NCBI GenBank assembly: GCA_041228335.1
Contig: CP166130.1
Coordinates: forward strand, 124,001 to 188,000
From: Alphaproteobacteria bacterium LSUCC0684
GTDB taxonomy: Bacteria; Pseudomonadota; Alphaproteobacteria; Puniceispirillales; UBA1172
DNA length: 64,000 bases
Reading direction: 5' to 3'
Shown: piece after piece, positions 44,010-62,411 of the stretch
How the letters are laid out: each line of letters opens with the position of its first letter
Position numbering within the stretch: position 1 is the first letter of the stretch
Notes under the pieces: model-generated
What the model saw: only the letters and a program-made list of their open reading frames with translations
What the model was told of the DNA's origin: nothing
Database searches by the model: none
Program-made: the position numbers and the translations under genes

Positions 44010-44535
44010 CGAAACGTACCATGCCATTATAACGGCGAAGATAGAAATGCTTTTCCCCGGCCCAAAAACACCGCGACGCATCCGGTTTCGCTTCTATATA
44101 ATCCGCCAGTTGAGTGGTGTGGAAAACCTGGGTGCAGCCAATGAAACGAATGCCGATGGTGCCGGGGGTGAATTCCGCCTCCCCTTTCCTGTTGCGGGTG
44201 ACCGTGATGGCAGGGGCATCTGCCCTGAAACACTGGCCGGCGCGCTGTTTCTTGCAGGCATCCGTCTCCGTGCTGTCGATGACCTTGATATAGGTAACCG
44301 TGTTTCCTTCAAAGATGAACCCGTCATCATCCAGCATCGCGCAACCATCGCCGGGCGGGCTGGTACGTGACGCGAATTCACACTCGAACCAGATGCCGTT
44401 CCACGAGTTCGCGGTATCCGATGATCCGGCAAGGGCAGGTCCTGCAAAAAACGCCATGGCAAGGCCAGGCATTGCAAATGAAATCAGCCAGTTTGAGTTT
44501 TTCAGTCCCATCATCTCTCCGGCCATCCTGATCAT
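44002..44535 (-). CDS. secreted protein of unknown function
   Basis: This 177-residue protein has an N-terminal signal peptide (WLISFAMPGLAMAFFAGPALA-GSSD) and six cysteines in the mature part, which could form disulfides in the periplasm. The sequence WNGIWFECEFASRTSPPGDGCAMLDDDGFIFEG is not one I recognise. Its ATG overlaps the MFS stop codon (ATGA), and its end overlaps ygfZ by 8 bases, so the three genes are translationally coupled. No function can be assigned. Confidence 0.75.
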   Translation of the reverse strand: MIRMAGEMMGLKNSNWLISFAMPGLAMAFFAGPALAGSSDTANSWNGIWFECEFASRTSPPGDGCAMLDDDGFIFEGNTVTYIKVIDSTETDACKKQRAGQCFRADAPAITVTRNRKGEAEFTPGTIGIRFIGCTQVFHTTQLADYIEAKPDASRCFWAGEKHFYLRRYNGMVRFDG

Positions 44536-45749
44536 GCTTTTGTTTTTACCGCGATGAGGCCGAATGTTCCAGCCAGCAACGGGACAATACCCAGCACAAG
44601 AAGCAACGCGCCGAACGGGTAGCCGCCATCGATCATCAGTCCAAGCGTAACAGGCGACATCGCCGATGCAAAGACCATCAATGCCGCGGTGATCGCCTTG
44701 ATGCCGCCAAGATGCCTTGTGCCGTAGATTTCCGCCCAGATCGGGGTTGCCACTGTATGCACCAGCCCCTGGATCAGCCCGAAGACGATGAAATAGAGAT
44801 AGATCATCACCCCCGGCCCGACCATGTAAAGAAGGCAGGGGATAAGCGTGATGGACATCACCGCAAAAGGGGTTGTTCTGGCGCTGGTGAAACGGTCAGC
44901 GACCCCGCCACCGAGAAAGGCGCCAAGGATGCTCATGCTGGCGTAAAACGCGTATCCGCTGACCCATAGATCAAGCGCGACCATCTTCTGCTCGGCGATA
45001 TAGAGTTGATGGAAAAAGAGCCCGGTTGAGGTGAAACTTGGTGCCATCACGATGCCGGTGAGCATCCAGAACCGCCAGTGCAGGAGCATCTCTTTGCGTG
45101 TCCAGTGCTGGCCGTCACGTCCAGCCGCCATCGCGTCCACGCCGCCGCCATCCTGGCCTTCGCGGCGCTCGGTCAGGGAAAGTGCGGCCGGGATCATGAC
45201 GATCAGCACCGTCGCCGCCGTGATCTGCCAGACCTGCCGCCAGTCATAGAGCGTCAGCAGGGCAAAAGCGAGTATAGGCAACAGAAATTCCGACACCGGA
45301 TGCCCGAAAGTGGCAAAAGCCAGCGCCCGGCCACGTTCCGCCACATAGCGCCGTGTCATGGCGGTGGCGTAAAGATGGGTCATCATCCCCTGGCCGCTGA
45401 GCCGCAGGAAATAGATCCCCGCCGCCAGCATCGCAACGCTGCTGACAAAAGAAAAGAACAGCGCGGCCAGCGCAAGACCAAGAATGATCGCCGTGGCGAT
45501 TATCCTGAGCCGGATCGTATCCACCAGCCGGCCGAGCGGGATAAGGGTGGCGGCGCTGGCCAGCGTGCCGATGGCGTAGAGCGTGCCGAATTCCCCGTGG
45601 CTGAGCGCAAGATCTTCACGGATCACGCCTGAAAAAAGGGAGATATAGAATGTCTGCCCCGGGCCTGAGAAAAACGCGAGGAGGAAACCGAAAAGAAGGA
45701 ATCTCCATTGATCGAGGATAAAGTCTTTCGAAGGGAAGATCGACGACAT
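44532..45749 (-). CDS. MFS transporter
   Basis: This 405-residue inner-membrane protein has twelve hydrophobic segments and the MFS motif A between TM2 and TM3 (GRLVDTIRLR). The pattern GEFGTLYAIGTLASAATLIPLG and the long central loop (SLTERREGQDGGGVDAMAAGRDGQ) resemble monocarboxylate/oxalate-formate type MFS members. The substrate is not known. It is the first gene of a three-gene minus-strand unit with the secreted protein and ygfZ. Confidence 0.88.
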   Translation of the reverse strand: MSSIFPSKDFILDQWRFLLFGFLLAFFSGPGQTFYISLFSGVIREDLALSHGEFGTLYAIGTLASAATLIPLGRLVDTIRLRIIATAIILGLALAALFFSFVSSVAMLAAGIYFLRLSGQGMMTHLYATAMTRRYVAERGRALAFATFGHPVSEFLLPILAFALLTLYDWRQVWQITAATVLIVMIPAALSLTERREGQDGGGVDAMAAGRDGQHWTRKEMLLHWRFWMLTGIVMAPSFTSTGLFFHQLYIAEQKMVALDLWVSGYAFYASMSILGAFLGGGVADRFTSARTTPFAVMSITLIPCLLYMVGPGVMIYLYFIVFGLIQGLVHTVATPIWAEIYGTRHLGGIKAITAALMVFASAMSPVTLGLMIDGGYPFGALLLVLGIVPLLAGTFGLIAVKTKA

Positions 45750-45925: not shown

Positions 45926-45939
45926 GCTGGTGCTGCTGA
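45926..45939. repeat. 14-bp copy of tRNA-Thr 3' end, candidate attachment site
   Basis: GCTGGTGCTGCTGA occurs here and again at 47421-47434, where it spans the CCA and the 3' acceptor strand of tRNA-Thr plus two bases downstream. The two copies are in the same orientation and bracket exactly one gene. The nuclease-like gene's stop codon begins just 2 bases after this copy. This is the structure expected of a small islet inserted at the tRNA 3' end. Confidence 0.75.
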
Positions 45940-45940
45940 G

Positions 45941-47254
45941 TTATTCATTTTTGCATAATGAAATCAGTGGCTCGCATGCAAGCCAGGTATCTGCAATCAA
46001 TTTCAAGGACTCTGGTGTATGGATTTTGGGGCAATCATTATGTTTAAAACTGATCCCAATCCCAAACTGGAAATTAGACTTATGGGAAATAAACACATCA
46101 TACAACGCATCCAACCATTGGGGTTGAAACTTGGGTTGAAACTTTTGCTCTTGGCGGCTTCCAGCGCCAGTGACTAATGCTGTGCGCAGGTCAAAACGCA
46201 GTATTGCATCCTCATCTGGGACGGCCCCTTGTGACTTGTAGCGTCTCTGATACCCGCCGACCTTGGGCGTGGCCTTTTCATTATCGCGCAGAATATGATC
46301 CATCTTATTGAGAATCATTAAGCATACGTCTCTAAACCCGTCTTTCCCCAGTTCTTTAAGACGTTTCCTGGGCGGTCCGTTAAGCCCGTTAGGAATCGTA
46401 ATCTCAGCCATCACATCCGTTTCACTCAAAGAAAGCGTCAAATGCATAAATTTATCGGAACTCTTTTCTTCTGGACCACTGTTTAACTTGATAATATCCC
46501 AGACGCCCCGTTCACGGGAACCTGTGATTGAGGCACGTCCTTTGTGTTCCGGGTCCATACCCAATCGAGTTATAAGATCGGTATTTTCTCGAAGTTTAGC
46601 CATTGCTTGTCGAAGCTTCAACTTGGCAACCGAATAGCTATAATCGTTTTCAAATTTTGGAAATCCATCAAACTCTGTGATCGCTGTGTTATGCATCTTT
46701 CCATCCTTCATCATGCGTGTTTCCAGCAGTTCAAAGAAATCGGCCGCGTGTTTCGCCCATATTGAAGGTTTCTTGCAAGGTTTCTTGCGTAGCCAAAGAT
46801 AAATGTCTGACCAGTATAATTCCGTCCATGCTCCAGATTTTGCATTTTCCCTTGTTCCAGGGGTTGGGATTGTGCCAACGATTGTGAAGAAATACATGGA
46901 GTTGGATTCCGGTCTGTATTTTTTCGCAATGTCTTCATGTCCTTTCAATTGATTTTCATCAAGGGGCGCCGTGATCTTCGCTTCAAAAACCATGGTAAAT
47001 TCAGACTTTTCATCGAAAATCCACGCATCTGGTATATTCCGTATATTCCTGGCCTTGCTGTCGCCGTCTGGATAATTTTTAGCCCAAGGATATGTTTGTA
47101 CGCAAATTTGCAGTTCAGGTGATTTCGGGGGCGAAACACCACAAATATTTTTTATAAAGCAGGCCAGCAGATCTGGATCATTATTCAATGCCGCAAACAG
47201 TGCATGAGTAAGTTTATTCTCATTTTGGGAATACTGGTCGAATACATTTCTCAA
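45941..47254 (-). CDS. PD-(D/E)XK nuclease-like protein, orphan islet cargo
   Basis: This 437-residue soluble protein is not from a family I can name. Its N-terminal quarter fits the PD-(D/E)XK nuclease layout: an NENKLTHALFAAL helix with Glu12, Asp76 in IPDAWIF, then VFEAKITAPLDENQL giving Glu91-x-Lys93 and Gln102. The 330-residue remainder (helical, with KRLKELGKDGFRDV and a basic KVGGYQRRYKSQG stretch) has no evident domain and could bind nucleic acid or sense a signal. The gene stands alone between tRNA-Thr and a duplicated tRNA end, and is more AT-rich with different codon use from its neighbours. A solitary nuclease in a tRNA islet suggests anti-phage or anti-plasmid defence; this is inference. 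Confidence 0.7.
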   Translation of the reverse strand: MRNVFDQYSQNENKLTHALFAALNNDPDLLACFIKNICGVSPPKSPELQICVQTYPWAKNYPDGDSKARNIRNIPDAWIFDEKSEFTMVFEAKITAPLDENQLKGHEDIAKKYRPESNSMYFFTIVGTIPTPGTRENAKSGAWTELYWSDIYLWLRKKPCKKPSIWAKHAADFFELLETRMMKDGKMHNTAITEFDGFPKFENDYSYSVAKLKLRQAMAKLRENTDLITRLGMDPEHKGRASITGSRERGVWDIIKLNSGPEEKSSDKFMHLTLSLSETDVMAEITIPNGLNGPPRKRLKELGKDGFRDVCLMILNKMDHILRDNEKATPKVGGYQRRYKSQGAVPDEDAILRFDLRTALVTGAGSRQEQKFQPKFQPQWLDALYDVFISHKSNFQFGIGISFKHNDCPKIHTPESLKLIADTWLACEPLISLCKNE

Positions 47255-47422
47255 TTTTTTGTCTCCCCTTGAGTACAGATGCTTAATCGCACCCGGGACG
47301 GAAACTCGACCTCAAAAGTTGAAAAATACTAAAAGCATAAAAATCACTCTAACGCTGTGCCAGCGCGGTGAGGACAAAGCTTGAAAAAACCTGAAAATTT
47401 ACCAGCTAAATCAATAGGGTGC

Positions 47423-47498
<76 letters not shown>

Positions 47499-47585: not shown

Positions 47586-49004
47586 TCAGAACGGCAGTTT
47601 CAGCAACAGCCGCACAAGACGCCGTGTCCGTGCTGAAAAAAGGGCTTCGGTGAAATAGGCGCCAGCGGCACGTTTGGAAGCTTCGCCATAGGTGGGATAG
47701 GGCGCGATATAGGAGGCCATGGCACTGATTTTCAGGCGCTTTGAGATGGCCAGCGCCCAGGGCTGTATCATCTCACCGGCATGGGGGGCAAGAATGCTGG
47801 CGCCAAGAATAAATCCCTTTTTATCCGTAAGGGCAATGATGCGGCCTTCACCGCGCCGTTCCGCCCGGGCACGGTCATTTTCGGCAAGAGACGAGCTGAC
47901 AGTCCGGTAGGTGATATTGCGGGCCTTTGCGTCAGCCTCGCCAAGACCGACATGCGCAAGTTCAGGGTCCGTATAGGTGACCCAGGGCATGATGGCATCA
48001 TCAACCTTTGCCGGAATTCGGAAGAGGATATTCCGGATCACGATCCCCGCATGATAGCTCGCCGCATGGGTGAACTGGTGGCGCCCGGCCGCATCGCCCA
48101 TGGCATAGACGCGCCGGTTGCTGGATCTGAGGCGCCGGTCGGTGATGATGCCGGCACGATTGTGATCAACTCCAGCCGCCTCAAGATTGAGCCGCTCAAG
48201 ATTGGGCTTCCGGCCTGTTGCCACCAGCAGATGACTTCCCCGAATGGCATCATTCCCCTCAAGCTCAACCCGGATGGCACCTGCCTTGCCGCCAACCGCG
48301 GTAACGCCGACGCCTTCGATCAGCGTAATCCCGTCTTCAGTTAGGCATCGCCGAAGTGTGTCCACGAGATCGGGATGATCCCGGATCATGATGGAAGGGG
48401 CAGCTTCGATGAGCGTCACCTTCGACCCGAGCCGCTGATGCGCCTGCGCCATTTCAACCCCGATCGGGCCGCCGCCGATAATGATGAGATGTTCGGGCAG
48501 GGTGCGATCTGCAAAAATCGTCTCATTGGTATGAAAGGGGATATCGGCAAGACCGGGGATGGGCGGGACAAGCGGGGAGGATCCCGTGGCGATGACAAAC
48601 CGTTTTGCCCGAACTGTATAACCGCCTCCGGTTACGGTATCAGGGCTCGTAAAACCGGCATAGTCTTCGATAACCTTGACCCCGAGCCCGCGGAACCTTT
48701 CCGGCGAATCATGTGGGGCGATCCCGGCAATGACATCGGCGACATGGTCCTTGACGGCGGCAAAATCCACCTCGGCCGCCGCCCCCTTGATCCCCATGGC
48801 CGCATTGCCTCTGGCCGATTTGGCCATTTTGGCCGCCGCCAGCATCGCTTTTGACGGAACACAGCCGTAATTGAGGCAGTCACCCCCCATGCGATGCCCC
48901 TCGAAAAGCATCACATCGGCCCCCATCTGGACAGCGCCCGCCGCCAGGCTGAGGCCGCCGGAGCCGCCGCCAATGATGCAGATATCCGTAGTCAGGGTTT
49001 TCAC
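47586..49004 (-). CDS. FAD/NAD(P) disulfide oxidoreductase (mercuric reductase-like)
   Basis: This 472-residue class I pyridine-nucleotide disulfide oxidoreductase has GGGSGG at residues 12-17 (FAD), the redox-active CLNYGC pair (Cys43/Cys48), GGGPIGVEMAQ for NAD(P)H, and a dimerisation domain. It lacks the N-terminal heavy-metal domain of MerA. The GTG at 49004 overlaps the TVP38 stop codon (GTGA), giving the family N-terminus; an upstream ATG would add 20 unrelated residues. TVP38 plus this reductase is a recurrent pairing. The electron acceptor is unknown. Confidence 0.88.
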   Translation of the reverse strand: MKTLTTDICIIGGGSGGLSLAAGAVQMGADVMLFEGHRMGGDCLNYGCVPSKAMLAAAKMAKSARGNAAMGIKGAAAEVDFAAVKDHVADVIAGIAPHDSPERFRGLGVKVIEDYAGFTSPDTVTGGGYTVRAKRFVIATGSSPLVPPIPGLADIPFHTNETIFADRTLPEHLIIIGGGPIGVEMAQAHQRLGSKVTLIEAAPSIMIRDHPDLVDTLRRCLTEDGITLIEGVGVTAVGGKAGAIRVELEGNDAIRGSHLLVATGRKPNLERLNLEAAGVDHNRAGIITDRRLRSSNRRVYAMGDAAGRHQFTHAASYHAGIVIRNILFRIPAKVDDAIMPWVTYTDPELAHVGLGEADAKARNITYRTVSSSLAENDRARAERRGEGRIIALTDKKGFILGASILAPHAGEMIQPWALAISKRLKISAMASYIAPYPTYGEASKRAAGAYFTEALFSARTRRLVRLLLKLPF

Positions 49005-49744
49005 AGCGACGCATCCTTTCGGGATTTGATGAATTTCACCACCATCGGCACCAGCGCAAGGCATCCCAGCGCCGTCAGCGGCAGGATGATCTCAGGCCGG
49101 GCAAGGCTGCTTGTATCCGGTGTCCGGCCACTGGCGAGCACCGTGTCAAACCCGCGCCCGACCCAGATATAGACCGAGGTGCCGGGGAAAATGCCGATAA
49201 AGGTGGCGAAAAGGAAATCTCTTGTCTTCATCCCCAGTGCCGCCGGCACAATATTCACCACCCAGAAAGGGGCCGCGGGTATCAGCCTCAGCGCCAGGAG
49301 CCAGAGAAAGGGGGACTGGTCAAACCCGGCCTTGATCCGCGAGATGAACGGCCCGGCCTTGCGGGTCAGGCTGTCGGCCAGTGCGCCCTTGGCCGCGAGA
49401 AAAAGGATCAGGGCCCCGGCGGTGGCCGACGTTACCACCAGCAGCACGGCCGGCCAGCCGATGATCGCGCCGCCCGCAAGTGTCAGGAGCGTTGCCACGG
49501 GCAGCGAGAAGGCCACGGCCAGCGTATAGGCCAGCATGAACCCGCCCCAGGCCAGGATTGTGTTCTCCGCAACCCAGGAGGTGATTGCCGTGTAATGCTG
49601 GCTCAACGCAGCAAAACTGAAAATATCATCAAGATCAAAGGCAAAGAACAACACGAGGCCAAGAAGAAGTATCCCCAAGGGGAGAAGACGCCGCAGCCGG
49701 TGCGGCTGCCGATGTTCCGGGGATGTATCTGATACAGGTGACAT
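49001..49744 (-). CDS. TVP38/TMEM64 (VTT/DedA-like) membrane protein
   Basis: This 247-residue inner-membrane protein has five or six hydrophobic segments and the VTT domain core: FMLAYTLAVAFSLPVATLLTLAGGAIIGW, then LALRLIPAAPFWVVNIVPAALGMKTRDFLFATFIGIFPGTSVY, which is diagnostic. Related DedA/TMEM41 proteins move or scramble phospholipids. The ATG at 49744 follows GGGA; the longer frame adds non-homologous residues. It is cotranscribed with the disulfide reductase. Confidence 0.9.
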   Translation of the reverse strand: MSPVSDTSPEHRQPHRLRRLLPLGILLLGLVLFFAFDLDDIFSFAALSQHYTAITSWVAENTILAWGGFMLAYTLAVAFSLPVATLLTLAGGAIIGWPAVLLVVTSATAGALILFLAAKGALADSLTRKAGPFISRIKAGFDQSPFLWLLALRLIPAAPFWVVNIVPAALGMKTRDFLFATFIGIFPGTSVYIWVGRGFDTVLASGRTPDTSSLARPEIILPLTALGCLALVPMVVKFIKSRKDASL

Positions 49745-57368: not shown

Positions 57369-57444
<76 letters not shown>

Positions 57445-57477
57445 TTTTTTCCCTGAAAATCCTCGCCTTTTCTGCCA

Positions 57478-57500
57478 CTTAACCGCCAGGTTAAGTTTTT
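57478..57500 (+). terminator. intrinsic terminator after tRNA-Phe
   Basis: A 7-bp stem CTTAACC/GGTTAAG with a GCCA loop is followed by TTTTT. It begins 33 bases after the tRNA 3' end and would end its transcript. It lies inside the island, so the element seems to supply the terminator for the rebuilt tRNA gene. Confidence 0.85.
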
Positions 57501-57590
57501 CAGTAATTTCGATTCTTGCATGCTATTGGTTATCTGTTACTGGTGGCCAAGGTAGATGTTAATCCGTAACCCGGCCAGAACTAGACAAAA

Positions 57591-57854
57591 TCAAAGTGCA
57601 AGAAGCGGCGGTTGCGGGGCCCCCGTAACCTGAAATTTAATCAAGAGATCCAACTCTTCTGGATGCAATAGATATGCGGTATAATAGACACTCACATCGG
57701 GGTCTTTAGGTTGCAGACCAAAGATAATGCCACCATAGGTATTGAATGACGTTTTGGGGCTGATTGGCCTGGCCAGCGATGCGGTGCCAAGACAAGAAAA
57801 GGAACTGAGTGCCAACGACCTGCCAACAAGAAGAATGGGTGTTGCAGGGTCCAT
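57591..57854 (-). CDS. hypothetical small ORF at the island entry
   Basis: This 87-residue frame occupies most of the 497-bp gap between tRNA-Phe and the DMSP lyase gene. Its composition (GGIIFGLQPKDPDVSVYYTAYL) is not obviously random, but I recognise no family and no clear Shine-Dalgarno. It may be a remnant of an integrase-region gene or not a gene at all. The rest of the gap holds a tRNA terminator and the probable lyase promoter. Confidence 0.3.
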   Translation of the reverse strand: MDPATPILLVGRSLALSSFSCLGTASLARPISPKTSFNTYGGIIFGLQPKDPDVSVYYTAYLLHPEELDLLIKFQVTGAPQPPLLAL

Positions 57855-57941
57855 GGTGGTGCTAGTGGCCGCTAAGACAGATTAGTATAATGATCAGAGA
57901 TAATACGGTAAGATAGCATTTTAAATCGGAGTCAGGAGATC

Positions 57942-58571
57942 ATGACACTCTCACGGCTGTTTGATGAATTATCTGCGCTTCTTTCCGGTGACTACACGAT
58001 TGAAGCGAACGCCATCAAGGCGTTGCAGAAGGCGGATGCCGAGATTGATCTGAAGTATCAATCATCCCCCCTGTCCGCACCTTTCCTTGAGGTGATGGCG
58101 CAGGCTGAGGCAAATCCCATATGTGATCTGATCAGGGATATCCCCTTTCACTGGGCGCCGCCTGAAACTTCAAAAGACCCTCTTTATAAACAACATAGCC
58201 ATTTCAAGGCTCATGTGGAACTGCTTGGTCCGACCGGGCTTGTTCCATCCTCCGAGGTGCGCGTAGGGCTATATGGAATGCTGCCACATTCAGAATACGG
58301 TATCCGCACCCATCCGGCAGAAGAAACCTATCTCATGCTGGCAGGAAATGCGTTCTGGAAACGTGGCGATGATGCTTACGAGCAACTCTTTACCGGCCAG
58401 CGGTCCTATCACCCTTCCATGATGCCACACGCGACCCGGACAGAAGACTCCGCATTTATGTCGGTTTACATATGGGATGGGGATATCTCGACCGATCAAT
58501 ATACATATTTGGGGCTTCCTGAAACATCAATAGAGAAATCCAAAATTACTGGCACAGAAAATCGGGGCTAG
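57942..58571 (+). CDS. dddQ: DddQ-type DMSP lyase (cupin)
   Basis: This 209-residue cupin has the metal and catalytic set of the DddQ/DddL DMSP lyase family: His124, Glu128 and Tyr130 in HPAEETY, His163 in MPHATRT, and Tyr119 upstream. This spacing matches what is known of DddQ (H125, E129, Y131, H163, Y120), shifted by one. The family cleaves dimethylsulfoniopropionate to dimethyl sulfide and acrylate. An N-terminal helical domain of about 100 residues precedes the cupin, as expected. It lies in the tRNA-Phe island, so the trait appears recently acquired; acrylate-processing genes are not adjacent. Confidence 0.87.
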   Translation: MTLSRLFDELSALLSGDYTIEANAIKALQKADAEIDLKYQSSPLSAPFLEVMAQAEANPICDLIRDIPFHWAPPETSKDPLYKQHSHFKAHVELLGPTGLVPSSEVRVGLYGMLPHSEYGIRTHPAEETYLMLAGNAFWKRGDDAYEQLFTGQRSYHPSMMPHATRTEDSAFMSVYIWDGDISTDQYTYLGLPETSIEKSKITGTENRG

Positions 58572-58650
58572 ACAACTATAGTAAAATTAAAAAACATGAA
58601 ACCTCATTAATTATTGAATTCTTATTTTTTATGAGATTAAAGTAATTTTT

Positions 58651-60102
58651 ATGAAACTTGATTTCTTTCGGAAGATTGGTTTTGGTTTAGCACCGGATGA
58701 AAATGTTCCATCTGATCCCATTGCATGGGCAGTGCGTCAGGTTGAAACACCTGCAAAACTCACTTGGCCAGGGCATATACCATCGGAACAGGAATTACTT
58801 GATCACAGGGCTGAATTTGTCTATCAGGATCGGCGTATTCTTCGCGAAAAGTTCAAAAATAATCGCAACGCCTATGATGATGCAAAAACGCAGTTGCGAT
58901 ACAAAACTGGCGAACGTTATTTCCCCAGTTTAGAGACAGTAATTCGCCATCATGCCGCAGTTAAGGGTAAGGCGCCTGTATTTGAGCGGCTATGGCATTT
59001 TTGGTGCAATCATTTTGCGATTTCTGAAAAGGATATGCTCGATCGCTGGAACACCGGCGGTTATCAACGTGAGACCATCCGTCCCAATTTGTGTGGCAGT
59101 TTTACCGATTTGGTTAAGAAAGTAACCGTGTCTTGGACAATGATCCATCATCTGGACAACACCGAGTCAGTGGGGCCTAATTCGAAATGGGGAAAAAATC
59201 GCCGTAAAAAGGGTAAGCCCGCAACTGTAAACGAAAATCATGCCCGCGAATTACTTGAATTACATACGGTTTCACCAGCTGCGGGCTATACTCAGCAGGA
59301 TGTGATAAATCTGGCCTATATCATGGCGGGATGGGAAAACAGGTGGTCTAAAAAACGTGAGGAGTGCAATCCCGTTCAGTTCAATGACAAGAAACATGAG
59401 CCTGGCACCCATAAAGTTATGGGTAAAGGTTATAAGCAACGGGGCATTTCCTCAGAAACCAAATTATTTGATGTTGTTGAAGACCTTTGTGCGCACCCAT
59501 GCACACGCCGCTTTATCAGTTGGAAATTGGTTCGACATTTTGTTACCGATGAACCCACCGATGCGATGATTGCGCCATTGATTAAAGCATGGGAAGAAAC
59601 CGACGGAGATCTGCCATCGGTCTACAAGGCCTTAATTAAGGTTGTTTATGAGCATACAGGATCGGAGCAAAAGTTTCTGAATCCTGAAACGTGGCTGTTG
59701 CAATGCATTCGTATTTCCGGAACGAATTGGCCACCTTCGCCGGAGGTCATGGCTTATGATTTCAAATCAAAGCCTAGTCAACCTGCTCGTCAACCTAGTA
59801 TTATCATGCGGGAATTAGGGCATAATCTGTTGGCGCCCTCACAACCTAACGGCTGGCCAGATACAGAGGCAGAATGGTTGTCTCCGGAACTGCTGATCCG
59901 ACGTTTGGCGGCGTCGAGCAAATTTGCCAATGATCCGAAGTACAGTGTATTTGTGGATTATCACAAAGTGGCGGAAAAGAATTTTGATGCGTTGGATGAC
60001 GTGAATTATTTCCTCCATAAGGCTAAAAATGTTGATTTTTACTCTAATCCAAAACGAATGGGACAAGCCCTATTTTCTAGTAAATGGATGTTAAAAGTAT
60101 GA
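58651..60102 (+). CDS. DUF1800 family protein
   Basis: This 483-residue protein has the DUF1800 core: VFERLWHFWCNHFAIS, VNENHARELLELHTVSP, GYTQQDVINLAYIMAGW, CTRRFISWKLVRHFVTDEP and WPPSPEVMAYD-like C-terminal segments. No signal peptide is obvious. The family is of unknown function and nearly always accompanies a DUF1501 protein, as here; the two overlap by 4 bases (ATGA). Its codons are more AT-rich than those of the core block. Confidence 0.87.
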   Translation: MKLDFFRKIGFGLAPDENVPSDPIAWAVRQVETPAKLTWPGHIPSEQELLDHRAEFVYQDRRILREKFKNNRNAYDDAKTQLRYKTGERYFPSLETVIRHHAAVKGKAPVFERLWHFWCNHFAISEKDMLDRWNTGGYQRETIRPNLCGSFTDLVKKVTVSWTMIHHLDNTESVGPNSKWGKNRRKKGKPATVNENHARELLELHTVSPAAGYTQQDVINLAYIMAGWENRWSKKREECNPVQFNDKKHEPGTHKVMGKGYKQRGISSETKLFDVVEDLCAHPCTRRFISWKLVRHFVTDEPTDAMIAPLIKAWEETDGDLPSVYKALIKVVYEHTGSEQKFLNPETWLLQCIRISGTNWPPSPEVMAYDFKSKPSQPARQPSIIMRELGHNLLAPSQPNGWPDTEAEWLSPELLIRRLAASSKFANDPKYSVFVDYHKVAEKNFDALDDVNYFLHKAKNVDFYSNPKRMGQALFSSKWMLKV

Positions 60103-61238
60103 CTATTAGCCGTCGACATTTCATATCAGGGATAGGATCCCTGACCTTGCTGGGATCTCCTTTATTTAATGCCCGTGCCGCCTCCATGAAGAAGAAAAAC
60201 TTTGTAGTGATCATGCTGAGGGGTGGGATGGACGGTCTTACGGCGATCCAACCCAATGACAGCAAAATGGCACAAGTGCGGCCTGATATTCTGGTCAAAG
60301 GGGTAAAAAAACTTACTGCTGATTTTAATATCCATCCTCGCCTAAAGGCTTTTTATGAATGCTGGCAAGAAGGCAAGGCGTCAGTTGTTCATGCTACCTC
60401 AATACCTTACACGATGCGGTCACATTTTGATGGACAAAACCTGATGCAAAGTGGCGGGCATACCCCCTATACCGAAAAAACAGGCTGGCTCGGGCGTGGG
60501 ATTGAAGTCTCAGCTTTGGGCGGATTGGCGATATCCTTGCCAATGCCTTTGCTGTTGCGGGGGAAGAATACACTCGACAATTTTTTTCCCACTTGGATGA
60601 GCTTGCCAAATGATGGTGATCTAAGAGTTATTGAAAGTTCCTATTCAAAAGGATCAGCCTTGGCTGAAGTGATGAATCGCGTTCGTTCACGTCCTGTTTC
60701 TATGATGAAACGTGGTGGTGATAACCAAGCACATGAACTGGCGGTTGTGGCTGCGCAGGAATTACGCCGTGAAGATGGTCCTCGTGTTGCTGTTTTTGAC
60801 ATTGGAGGTTTTGATACCCATGCTGCTCAAGGTGGTGAAGATGGAGCCCATGGTGAATGCTTGGCTGATTTTGATAAAGTTTTGAACGCATTGCGCAACG
60901 GACTTGGCAATCAATTCGATCAGACTCTGATTGTTACATTAACAGAATTTGGTCGGAAGGTAGAACAAAACGGGGGCTATGGCACTGAACATGGCTATGG
61001 CACGGCGATCTTGATGGCAGGGGGATTGGTCAAATCTTCTCAAATTTATGCTGATTGGCCAGGCCTGGCTACCAAGAATCTCTTTGAGCGACAGGATTTG
61101 AACGCCACGATTGATGCTCGTTCAGTCTATTGCTCTGCCATGTCAACATGTTTTGATGTTGATTTCAAAACGATGAAGGATAGAGCCTTCTTTGGTGATC
61201 CGCTCACAGATCTTTCTGATCGGTTATTCAAGATCTAA
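60099..61238 (+). CDS. DUF1501 family Tat-exported protein
   Basis: This 379-residue protein starts MTISRRHFISGIGSL, a twin-arginine signal, and has an alkaline-phosphatase/sulfatase-like core: NFVVIMLRGGMDGLTAIQP, the AVFDIGGFDTHAAQGGEDG motif and TEFGRKVEQNGGYGTEHGYGTAILMAGG. It is exported folded across the inner membrane. Its biochemical role is not established. The ATG at 60099 overlaps the DUF1800 stop; an earlier ATG at 60084 is possible. A cytochrome gene follows within 5 bases, so the three form one operon. Confidence 0.89.
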   Translation: MTISRRHFISGIGSLTLLGSPLFNARAASMKKKNFVVIMLRGGMDGLTAIQPNDSKMAQVRPDILVKGVKKLTADFNIHPRLKAFYECWQEGKASVVHATSIPYTMRSHFDGQNLMQSGGHTPYTEKTGWLGRGIEVSALGGLAISLPMPLLLRGKNTLDNFFPTWMSLPNDGDLRVIESSYSKGSALAEVMNRVRSRPVSMMKRGGDNQAHELAVVAAQELRREDGPRVAVFDIGGFDTHAAQGGEDGAHGECLADFDKVLNALRNGLGNQFDQTLIVTLTEFGRKVEQNGGYGTEHGYGTAILMAGGLVKSSQIYADWPGLATKNLFERQDLNATIDARSVYCSAMSTCFDVDFKTMKDRAFFGDPLTDLSDRLFKI

Positions 61239-61242
61239 AACT

Positions 61243-61692
61243 ATGCAAAAAATCATTGGGTATTCCATGATTGTGGCTATAGCTATGACTGTTGAAATAG
61301 TTACATCAAATACATTTGCCCATAGCGATACCACAGGCATCGTAAATGAACGTAAGGAACGCTTCAAAGCCAGTCAAGACGCCATGAAATCTATGGCTGA
61401 TGCGGTGACATTGGAAGATTTTGATCGCCTTGTTGAGTATACTGAAAGCATCGAAATTTGGGCCAATGAGATGGTGTCGTACTTCCCCGAAGGATCGAAT
61501 GGAAAACCATCAGAAGCTCTTGATGTGATCTGGGAAAAACCAGCTGAGTTTGCTGCTGCGGCTGCTCAAAATGAAGTGGCTGCCCGCCGATTGATAAAGT
61601 TAGCAAAAGACGGTGATGCGCAATCGGTTCGTACGGCTTTCATAGACTTGGCCGCAAGTTGCAAGGCCTGTCACAAGAAGTTTAGGCAATAA
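61243..61692 (+). CDS. cytochrome c-prime/c556 family protein
   Basis: This 149-residue periplasmic protein has a signal peptide (to about residue 26, NTFA-HS), a four-helix-bundle body and a single C-terminal haem motif, Cys140-x-x-Cys143-His144 (CKACH), as in cytochrome c-prime and c556. It starts 5 bases after the DUF1501 gene. It may pass electrons to or from that exported protein, which is inference from operon structure. No oxidase is encoded nearby. Confidence 0.85.
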   Translation: MQKIIGYSMIVAIAMTVEIVTSNTFAHSDTTGIVNERKERFKASQDAMKSMADAVTLEDFDRLVEYTESIEIWANEMVSYFPEGSNGKPSEALDVIWEKPAEFAAAAAQNEVAARRLIKLAKDGDAQSVRTAFIDLAASCKACHKKFRQ

Positions 61693-61945
61693 TTATTTAA
61701 CCTTGAGCAGTACCATTTTTTGCATCTCATCGCGGGTCTTGGACCTTGGATCGGGGGTTACTTGGAGGTTTTGCCGTTTGCAAGAATAAAGATCAGAGGG
61801 GGGGTTGCCCCTAAAACATTACATTACAGATTATGTGACTTTGCTGGGGTGATAGATGCGCAGAGTTTGTGGGGTATAGTTTTATTGGGGTGCCTTAGCC
61901 CCTTAAATCAGAGCCATAATTTTATAGATACGGAGGAACAGAATT

Positions 61946-62233
61946 ATGGCCCGCAAGCGTCACTCAGACGAGGATATTTTCAAGCTGTTGCATCAGATTG
62001 AGGTGCATGTTCATAGCGGAATGGATGTTGTCGGTGCTTGCCGTAAAGCCGGCGTGTCAGACAAGGCTTATTAATTTTGGCGCAAGAAGTTTGGCGGCAT
62101 GGGGCGTTCACAGCTCAGCGAGATGAAGTCACTTCAGAAAGAGAATGATCGGCTGAAGAAGATCGTAGCTAAACTTGAGTTGGACAAGTTGATCTTGAAG
62201 GAAAGCCTGGATATTTTAAAACCAAAGGCCTGA
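61946..62233 (+). pseudogene. IS3-family transposase OrfA with a premature stop
   Basis: The frame reads a typical IS3 OrfA: helix-turn-helix (MARKRHSDEDIFKLLHQI, GMDVVGACRKAGVSDKAY) and a leucine-zipper end (KSLQKENDRLKKIVAKLELDKLILKESLD). It is interrupted by a TAA at 62072-62074 where family members have a residue before FWRKKFGG, usually Tyr. The orfB part (DDE catalytic) is missing and no terminal inverted repeats are found. It is a dead remnant of an insertion sequence near the distal end of the island. Confidence 0.87.
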
Positions 62234-62352
62234 CACGCGAAGAAAACGTCATGCCTGTCCCCACAGTCAAATTTCATTACACACTTTTTAACACACCTGA
62301 TTTTTCTGCCTGCAAGCCACTGATATAAAACAGGAAAAGTTAAAGCAGTTTT

Positions 62353-62397
62353 CTGAAAATCCGCGTGTCGGTGGTTCGAACCCGCCCCTGGGCACCA
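62353..62397 (+). repeat. 45-nt duplicate of tRNA-Phe 3' half, island attachment site
   Basis: This segment repeats positions 57400-57444 of the tRNA-Phe gene (anticodon loop to CCA) with a single mismatch (T57428 to C62381). The 5' half of a tRNA is absent. Both copies are in the same orientation and 4.95 kb apart. It marks the distal junction of an element integrated into tRNA-Phe. Confidence 0.95.
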
Positions 62398-62411
62398 CTT
62401 ACTCATCATAT

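Follow-up and report, generated by a model that had tools for sequence, protein, structure and literature searches.

The 3' end of a tRNA-Thr(GGT) gene in Alphaproteobacteria bacterium LSUCC0684, a marine-type organism, is followed by a 1.5-kb islet of foreign DNA that contains exactly one gene. With moderate confidence, we take this gene, which resides on a cargo-only tRNA islet, to encode an anti-phage nuclease of restriction type that acts on its own and recognises its target through a YktB-fold module. The islet lies in a window of 64,000 nucleotides (positions 124,001 to 188,000 of contig CP166130.1), i.e. the whole stretch of DNA that was analysed, and coordinates without prefix are those of the window. 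The features of the region are as follows:

44532..45749, minus strand: MFS transporter, core flank, next after tRNA-Thr in the empty-site relative G002
45926..45939, minus strand: outer 14-bp repeat, attR-like, displaced tRNA 3' end (repeat match, genome search)
45941..47254, minus strand: islet gene, 437 aa, TTG start, with a predicted PD-(D/E)XK nuclease-like N-terminal half and a predicted DUF1054/YktB-fold C-terminal half
45944..46675, minus strand: C-terminal domain, residues 194-437, predicted DUF1054/YktB-like fold (Z 15.4 to 2a8e; fold comparison)
46700..47254, minus strand: N-terminal nuclease-like domain, approximately residues 1-185, with E12, D76, E91, K93, Q102 and H106 invariant (alignment, fold comparison)
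47255..47420, minus strand: gene leader, 166 bp, GC 0.42, with the ribosome-binding-like motif AAGGGGAGA
47421..47434, minus strand: inner 14-bp repeat, attL-like, made up of the last 12 nt of tRNA-Thr and GC (repeat match, genome search)
47423..47498, minus strand: tRNA-Thr, anticodon GGT, target of integration, whose 3' end forms the inner repeat (ARAGORN; lpd-tRNA-Thr order kept in relatives)
47586..49064, minus strand: pyridine nucleotide-disulphide oxidoreductase (lpd-like), core flank on the upstream side of tRNA-Thr

The two copies of the repeat GCTGGTGCTGCTGA are 100% identical over their 14 bp. Read on the tRNA strand, the repeat is TCAGCAGCACCA-GC, i.e. the last 12 nt of tRNA-Thr(GGT) including CCA, followed by GC. 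When the whole 2.70-Mb genome was searched for this pattern, exactly two copies were found, both at the islet edges, and under a dinucleotide model a second exact copy would occur by chance in the next 2 kb downstream with a probability of about 1e-5. The span between the repeats (45940-47420; 1481 bp, ~1.48 kb) holds one gene, which bears out the original observation that a tRNA-Thr 3'-end repeat brackets a single gene; only the distance between its stop codon and the outer repeat, given as two bases, had to be corrected to one. The insertion is also more AT-rich than its surroundings, as had been noted. Its GC content is 0.43 versus 0.53 for the window and lower than that of every 1.48-kb window tile sampled in 100-base steps. 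The step in composition falls at the repeats, with a GC content of 0.60 outside on either side, and the GC3 of the islet gene is 0.43 compared to 0.59-0.72 in the core neighbours.

The gene order lpd, tRNA-Thr, MFS and then more core genes is kept across the family. The empty site that was to be sought in relatives is present in G002, a relative from the same family, where lpd and tRNA-Thr are followed by 16 bp and the MFS gene. Other relatives harbour different genes in this slot: a glutamate dehydrogenase-like gene in G003, three small ORFs in genus g2 and a ClpB-like gene in family f3, all named from their translations rather than by family search, and several genes in G004. Among the latter, downstream of tRNA-Thr (L041:5227-7933), are genes for a 260-aa protein and a DndB-like protein (PF14072), a possible defence pair. 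When the tRNA-Thr(GGT) loci covered by the survey of the order were searched for a second copy of the tRNA end (at least 12 bp) on the downstream side, one was found only in the host and in G027, which belongs to another family of the order. In G027, 41 identical bp flank a 0.95-kb unit (GC 0.37) with one 2OG-Fe(II) oxygenase-like gene (L048:11244-12095). It thus represents a second single-gene islet at the same tRNA, and single-gene islets recur at tRNA-Thr(GGT). The search for other genes in the slot, which had been suggested, found varied genes in relatives and a one-gene islet in G027; the islet type itself turned out not to be unusual. The islet gene was found in none of the other 135 genomes of the order (136 searched including the host), so the core-like distribution in distant relatives that would speak against an insertion was not seen.

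Cargo-only islands bordered by tRNA repeats are a known kind of element, and the islet belongs there: it has a repeat at both edges, an empty site exists, and its single ORF leaves no integrase inside. In the additive fGI-2 of Methylophilaceae, units that range from 330 bp to 42 kb and hold 1-63 genes have repeats of the final ~20 nt of a tRNA at their borders (PMC10872708). The likeness lies in the tRNA 3'-end repeats bordering units of as few as one gene, but fGI-2 uses tRNA-Lys and a repeat of ~20 nt, while the islet sits at tRNA-Thr in another lineage with 14 bp. Tycheposons, in contrast, carry their own tyrosine recombinase beside the tRNA; the islet has none and falls outside that class. 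As the unit has one gene and no integrase, either an integrase in trans moved it or it is what is left of a larger island. Eleven tyrosine recombinases are encoded elsewhere in the genome.

The second of these histories, in which a larger integrative island lost its integrase and other genes and left the nuclease as a relic, is a real possibility, although we consider it somewhat improbable. Flanking att-like sites in an element without integration and transfer genes correspond to the definition of a CIME (PMC5704250), a likeness limited by the fact that no ICE or IME neighbours the tRNA-Thr of the host, and two homologues of the nuclease (L005 and L052) reside on integrase-bearing elements. 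On the other hand, the gene is intact, full-length and conserved at every family-invariant position, and the islet ORFs included no recognisable remains of other genes. As an account of the islet's history, a remnant is compatible with the restriction-type nuclease that we favour.

The TTG start of the islet gene is backed by the ribosome-binding-like motif in the leader and by the homologues, all of which begin with MRNVFDQY. A consensus scan of the leader (47255..47420) detected neither a sigma-70-like promoter nor a terminator. The gene also holds two perfect tandem 12-bp duplications (46121-46144 and 46765-46788), which give in-frame repeats such as QPKFQPK.

Searches of Pfam, NCBIfam and PHROGs yielded no confident family for the islet protein, and searching PDB sequences with the family profile gave nothing useful. 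A scan of 84,980 genomes revealed 21 homologous loci, of which 20 are clear and one is a short match; they come from Alphaproteobacteria, Planctomycetota, Armatimonadetes, Acidobacteria and other groups. Two viral-type contigs also carry members; these two loci came from a profile scan, after a first scan of viral contigs had been empty. By tblastn, no relative was present in the phage and plasmid record collections. The family is thus rare and patchily distributed, and no prior description of it was found in the literature searched. An alignment of 20 sequences from several phyla is collinear (three are incomplete in the alignment) and shows that MRNVFDQY, Q10, E12, N13, H17, P75, D76, E91, K93, Q102 and H106 are invariant; P75-D76, E91 and K93 are also kept in both members from viral contigs.

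In an AlphaFold2 model (pLDDT 83) the islet protein consists of two halves. Foldseek matched the N-terminal half with the model of a phage PD-(D/E)XK protein (E 6e-7). A VIA-align comparison of residues 2-168 returned mostly restriction, repair and CRISPR-ancillary nucleases at Z ~5-6, a range that the tool calls common. It had been proposed that a PD-(D/E)XK fold would bring Asp76, Glu91 and Lys93 together. The core is indeed seen in the model and the three residues are invariant in the 20 sequences; a model lacking the nuclease core was not obtained. The D...ExK residues that are kept together thus point to membership of the PD-(D/E)XK superfamily, and the predicted core alpha-beta fold is moderate, not decisive, evidence in the same direction. 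The closest named counterparts of the nuclease part are PDDEXK_4 (PF14281) and PDC-S26. The islet protein scored 19.4 bits (E 0.0011) against PF14281, under the gathering cut-off of 22.3, and weak matches to this profile were found in 10 of the 20 family members. With the PADLOC profile of PDC-S26, the best stretch covered 107-216 of 400 (E 6e-5), and a match along the profile was not found. Whereas the nuclease core aligns, the catalytic pattern is shared and both are candidate single-gene defence proteins, the islet family remains below the Pfam cut-off, matches only ~110 of the 400 PDC-S26 positions and has its own signature, MRNVFDQY..Q.EN. PDC-S26 proteins of other Alphaproteobacteria proved diverse, and sharing of the C-terminal half was not established for them.

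The C-terminal half had been regarded as long and unassigned. This view needs revision, as two models show a DUF1054/YktB fold. In the AlphaFold2 model of the islet protein, this half aligns with YktB (2a8e) over 191 residues at Z 15.4, far above the next unrelated rows, and with another DUF1054 protein (3mqz) at Z 11.1. For the C-terminal model of a planctomycete member the values are 13.5 (2a8e, 185 residues) and 10.5. Sequence profiles do not support homology: PF06335 (DUF1054) gave no match at E 1 in the 20 members, and hhalign against DUF1054/YktB, for which PDB sequences served as the YktB set, returned a probability of 1% and a score no better than that of block-shuffled controls. A single hhalign segment sets His271 on a conserved YktB histidine, with a segment score at the level of the shuffled controls. 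The C-terminal half is therefore predicted to share the DUF1054/YktB fold (PF06335) at the level of structure, with profile similarity that is not significant, and it differs from the free-standing YktB in being fused to a nuclease. Neither a functional study of DUF1054/YktB nor a description of a nuclease joined to a YktB fold was found in the literature searched. A weak likeness of the C-terminal domain models to Cas7/Csy3 (Foldseek E ~1e-3, TM ~0.25, VIA Z <4) was set aside, as it probably reflects a common beta-alpha arrangement, and a 2006 mention of DUF1054 in connection with phage T4 (E 0.43) was disregarded.

The neighbourhoods of the homologues lend indirect support to a role in defence. 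Restriction genes were found near several of them: a type I R gene with DUF4268 and a type IIG fragment (L003), an R gene recognised by homology to that locus (L002), an MmeI-like type IIG gene (L004) and a type II methyltransferase gene (L008). Others lie near HEC-05, HNH and integrase genes (L005), PDC-S11 (L012), PDC-M41A (L016) or HEC-01A/B (L021), and one shares its element with ArdC, Fic, resolvase and integrase genes (L052). In a plain tally made without a background set, tested restriction or candidate-defence genes are nearby in seven or eight of ~17 independent homologue loci, while at L011, L013, L019 and L020 the homologues stand among apparently ordinary genes. No partner gene is common to all loci, so no single operon reveals the function. 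Taken together, the restriction and candidate-defence neighbours and the integrase-bearing elements suggest that the family may act in defence.

We propose the following scenario. Site-specific recombination would join the 1.5-kb unit to the tRNA-Thr(GGT) 3' end and restore the tRNA, leaving the 14-bp copy of the tRNA end at the far edge of the islet; the unit would have been moved by an integrase in trans or would derive from a larger island. In the cell, the C-terminal module may recognise some property of invading DNA or a sign of infection, upon which the putative PD-(D/E)XK nuclease would cut DNA in the manner of a stand-alone restriction enzyme. Because no methyltransferase accompanies the gene, self and non-self would have to be told apart in some other way, and we propose a type IV-like, modification- or structure-dependent mode.

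The main rival to such type IV-like or structure-dependent restriction, which we favour, is abortive infection, where the C-terminal module senses infection and a suicide nuclease destroys the DNA or RNA of both host and phage. The anatomy of the protein and the stand-alone gene without methyltransferase fit equally well, no sequence feature distinguishes the two modes, and the homologue at L021 lies near the HEC-01 ATPase/DUF4276 pair. However, the islet is devoid of a toxin-antitoxin-like partner, and overall we judge abortive infection unlikely. Far less probable is a selfish homing-type nuclease that spreads itself by cutting the empty tRNA-Thr site. A single nuclease gene placed exactly between tRNA repeats would suit such an enzyme, and PD-(D/E)XK homing enzymes do exist, as exemplified by I-Ssp6803I in a tRNA intron. 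Yet none of the examined homologue loci has a tRNA gene, and the one gene of the G027 islet, which lies at the same tRNA, is an oxygenase-like gene rather than a nuclease gene. Finally, the possibility that the repeat arose by chance next to an ordinary gene of vertical descent, conceivable for a length of only 14 bp, is practically negligible in view of the low chance expectation, the composition step at the repeats, the empty site of G002 and the absence of the gene from all but one of the 136 genomes searched in the order.

Beyond the restriction-type reading of this one protein, the family might constitute a new class of stand-alone anti-phage nucleases with a YktB/DUF1054-fold sensor, spread as single-gene cassettes via tRNA att sites by integrases in trans; this broader proposal is tentative and, as a whole, rather doubtful. 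If it were true, the YktB-fold sensor would provide the first functional clue to DUF1054/YktB, pointing to a family that recognises either nucleic acid or a signal of infection. The islet gene represents a small, well-delimited candidate defence gene that ties a predicted nuclease to the YktB fold. Since tRNA-Thr(GGT) takes single-gene cassettes in two families of one order, integrase-less cassette movement becomes testable.

A related habit is apparent at a tRNA-Phe gene of the same genome, where islets extend from 57369-62400 of the window onward (G000 C1:181369-224302). Downstream of this gene, four copies of its 3' end, all in the same orientation, occur at C1:186353, 200453, 218514 and 224261, with 95-98% identity over 41-51 bp, and the repeats form a tandem array of four units over ~43 kb, inside which no PF00589 integrase was reported. 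A further copy of the end is located at C1:975619. The units appear to contain a set of DMSP-lyase-like, DUF1800, DUF1501 and cytochrome c' genes, a second set resembling type II secretion, and genes for metabolism and transport. The DMSP lyase-like cupin gene (57942-58571 of the window; PF16867, E 1e-16) is part of a tRNA-Phe islet, and thus a marine sulphur trait may ride on a movable unit.
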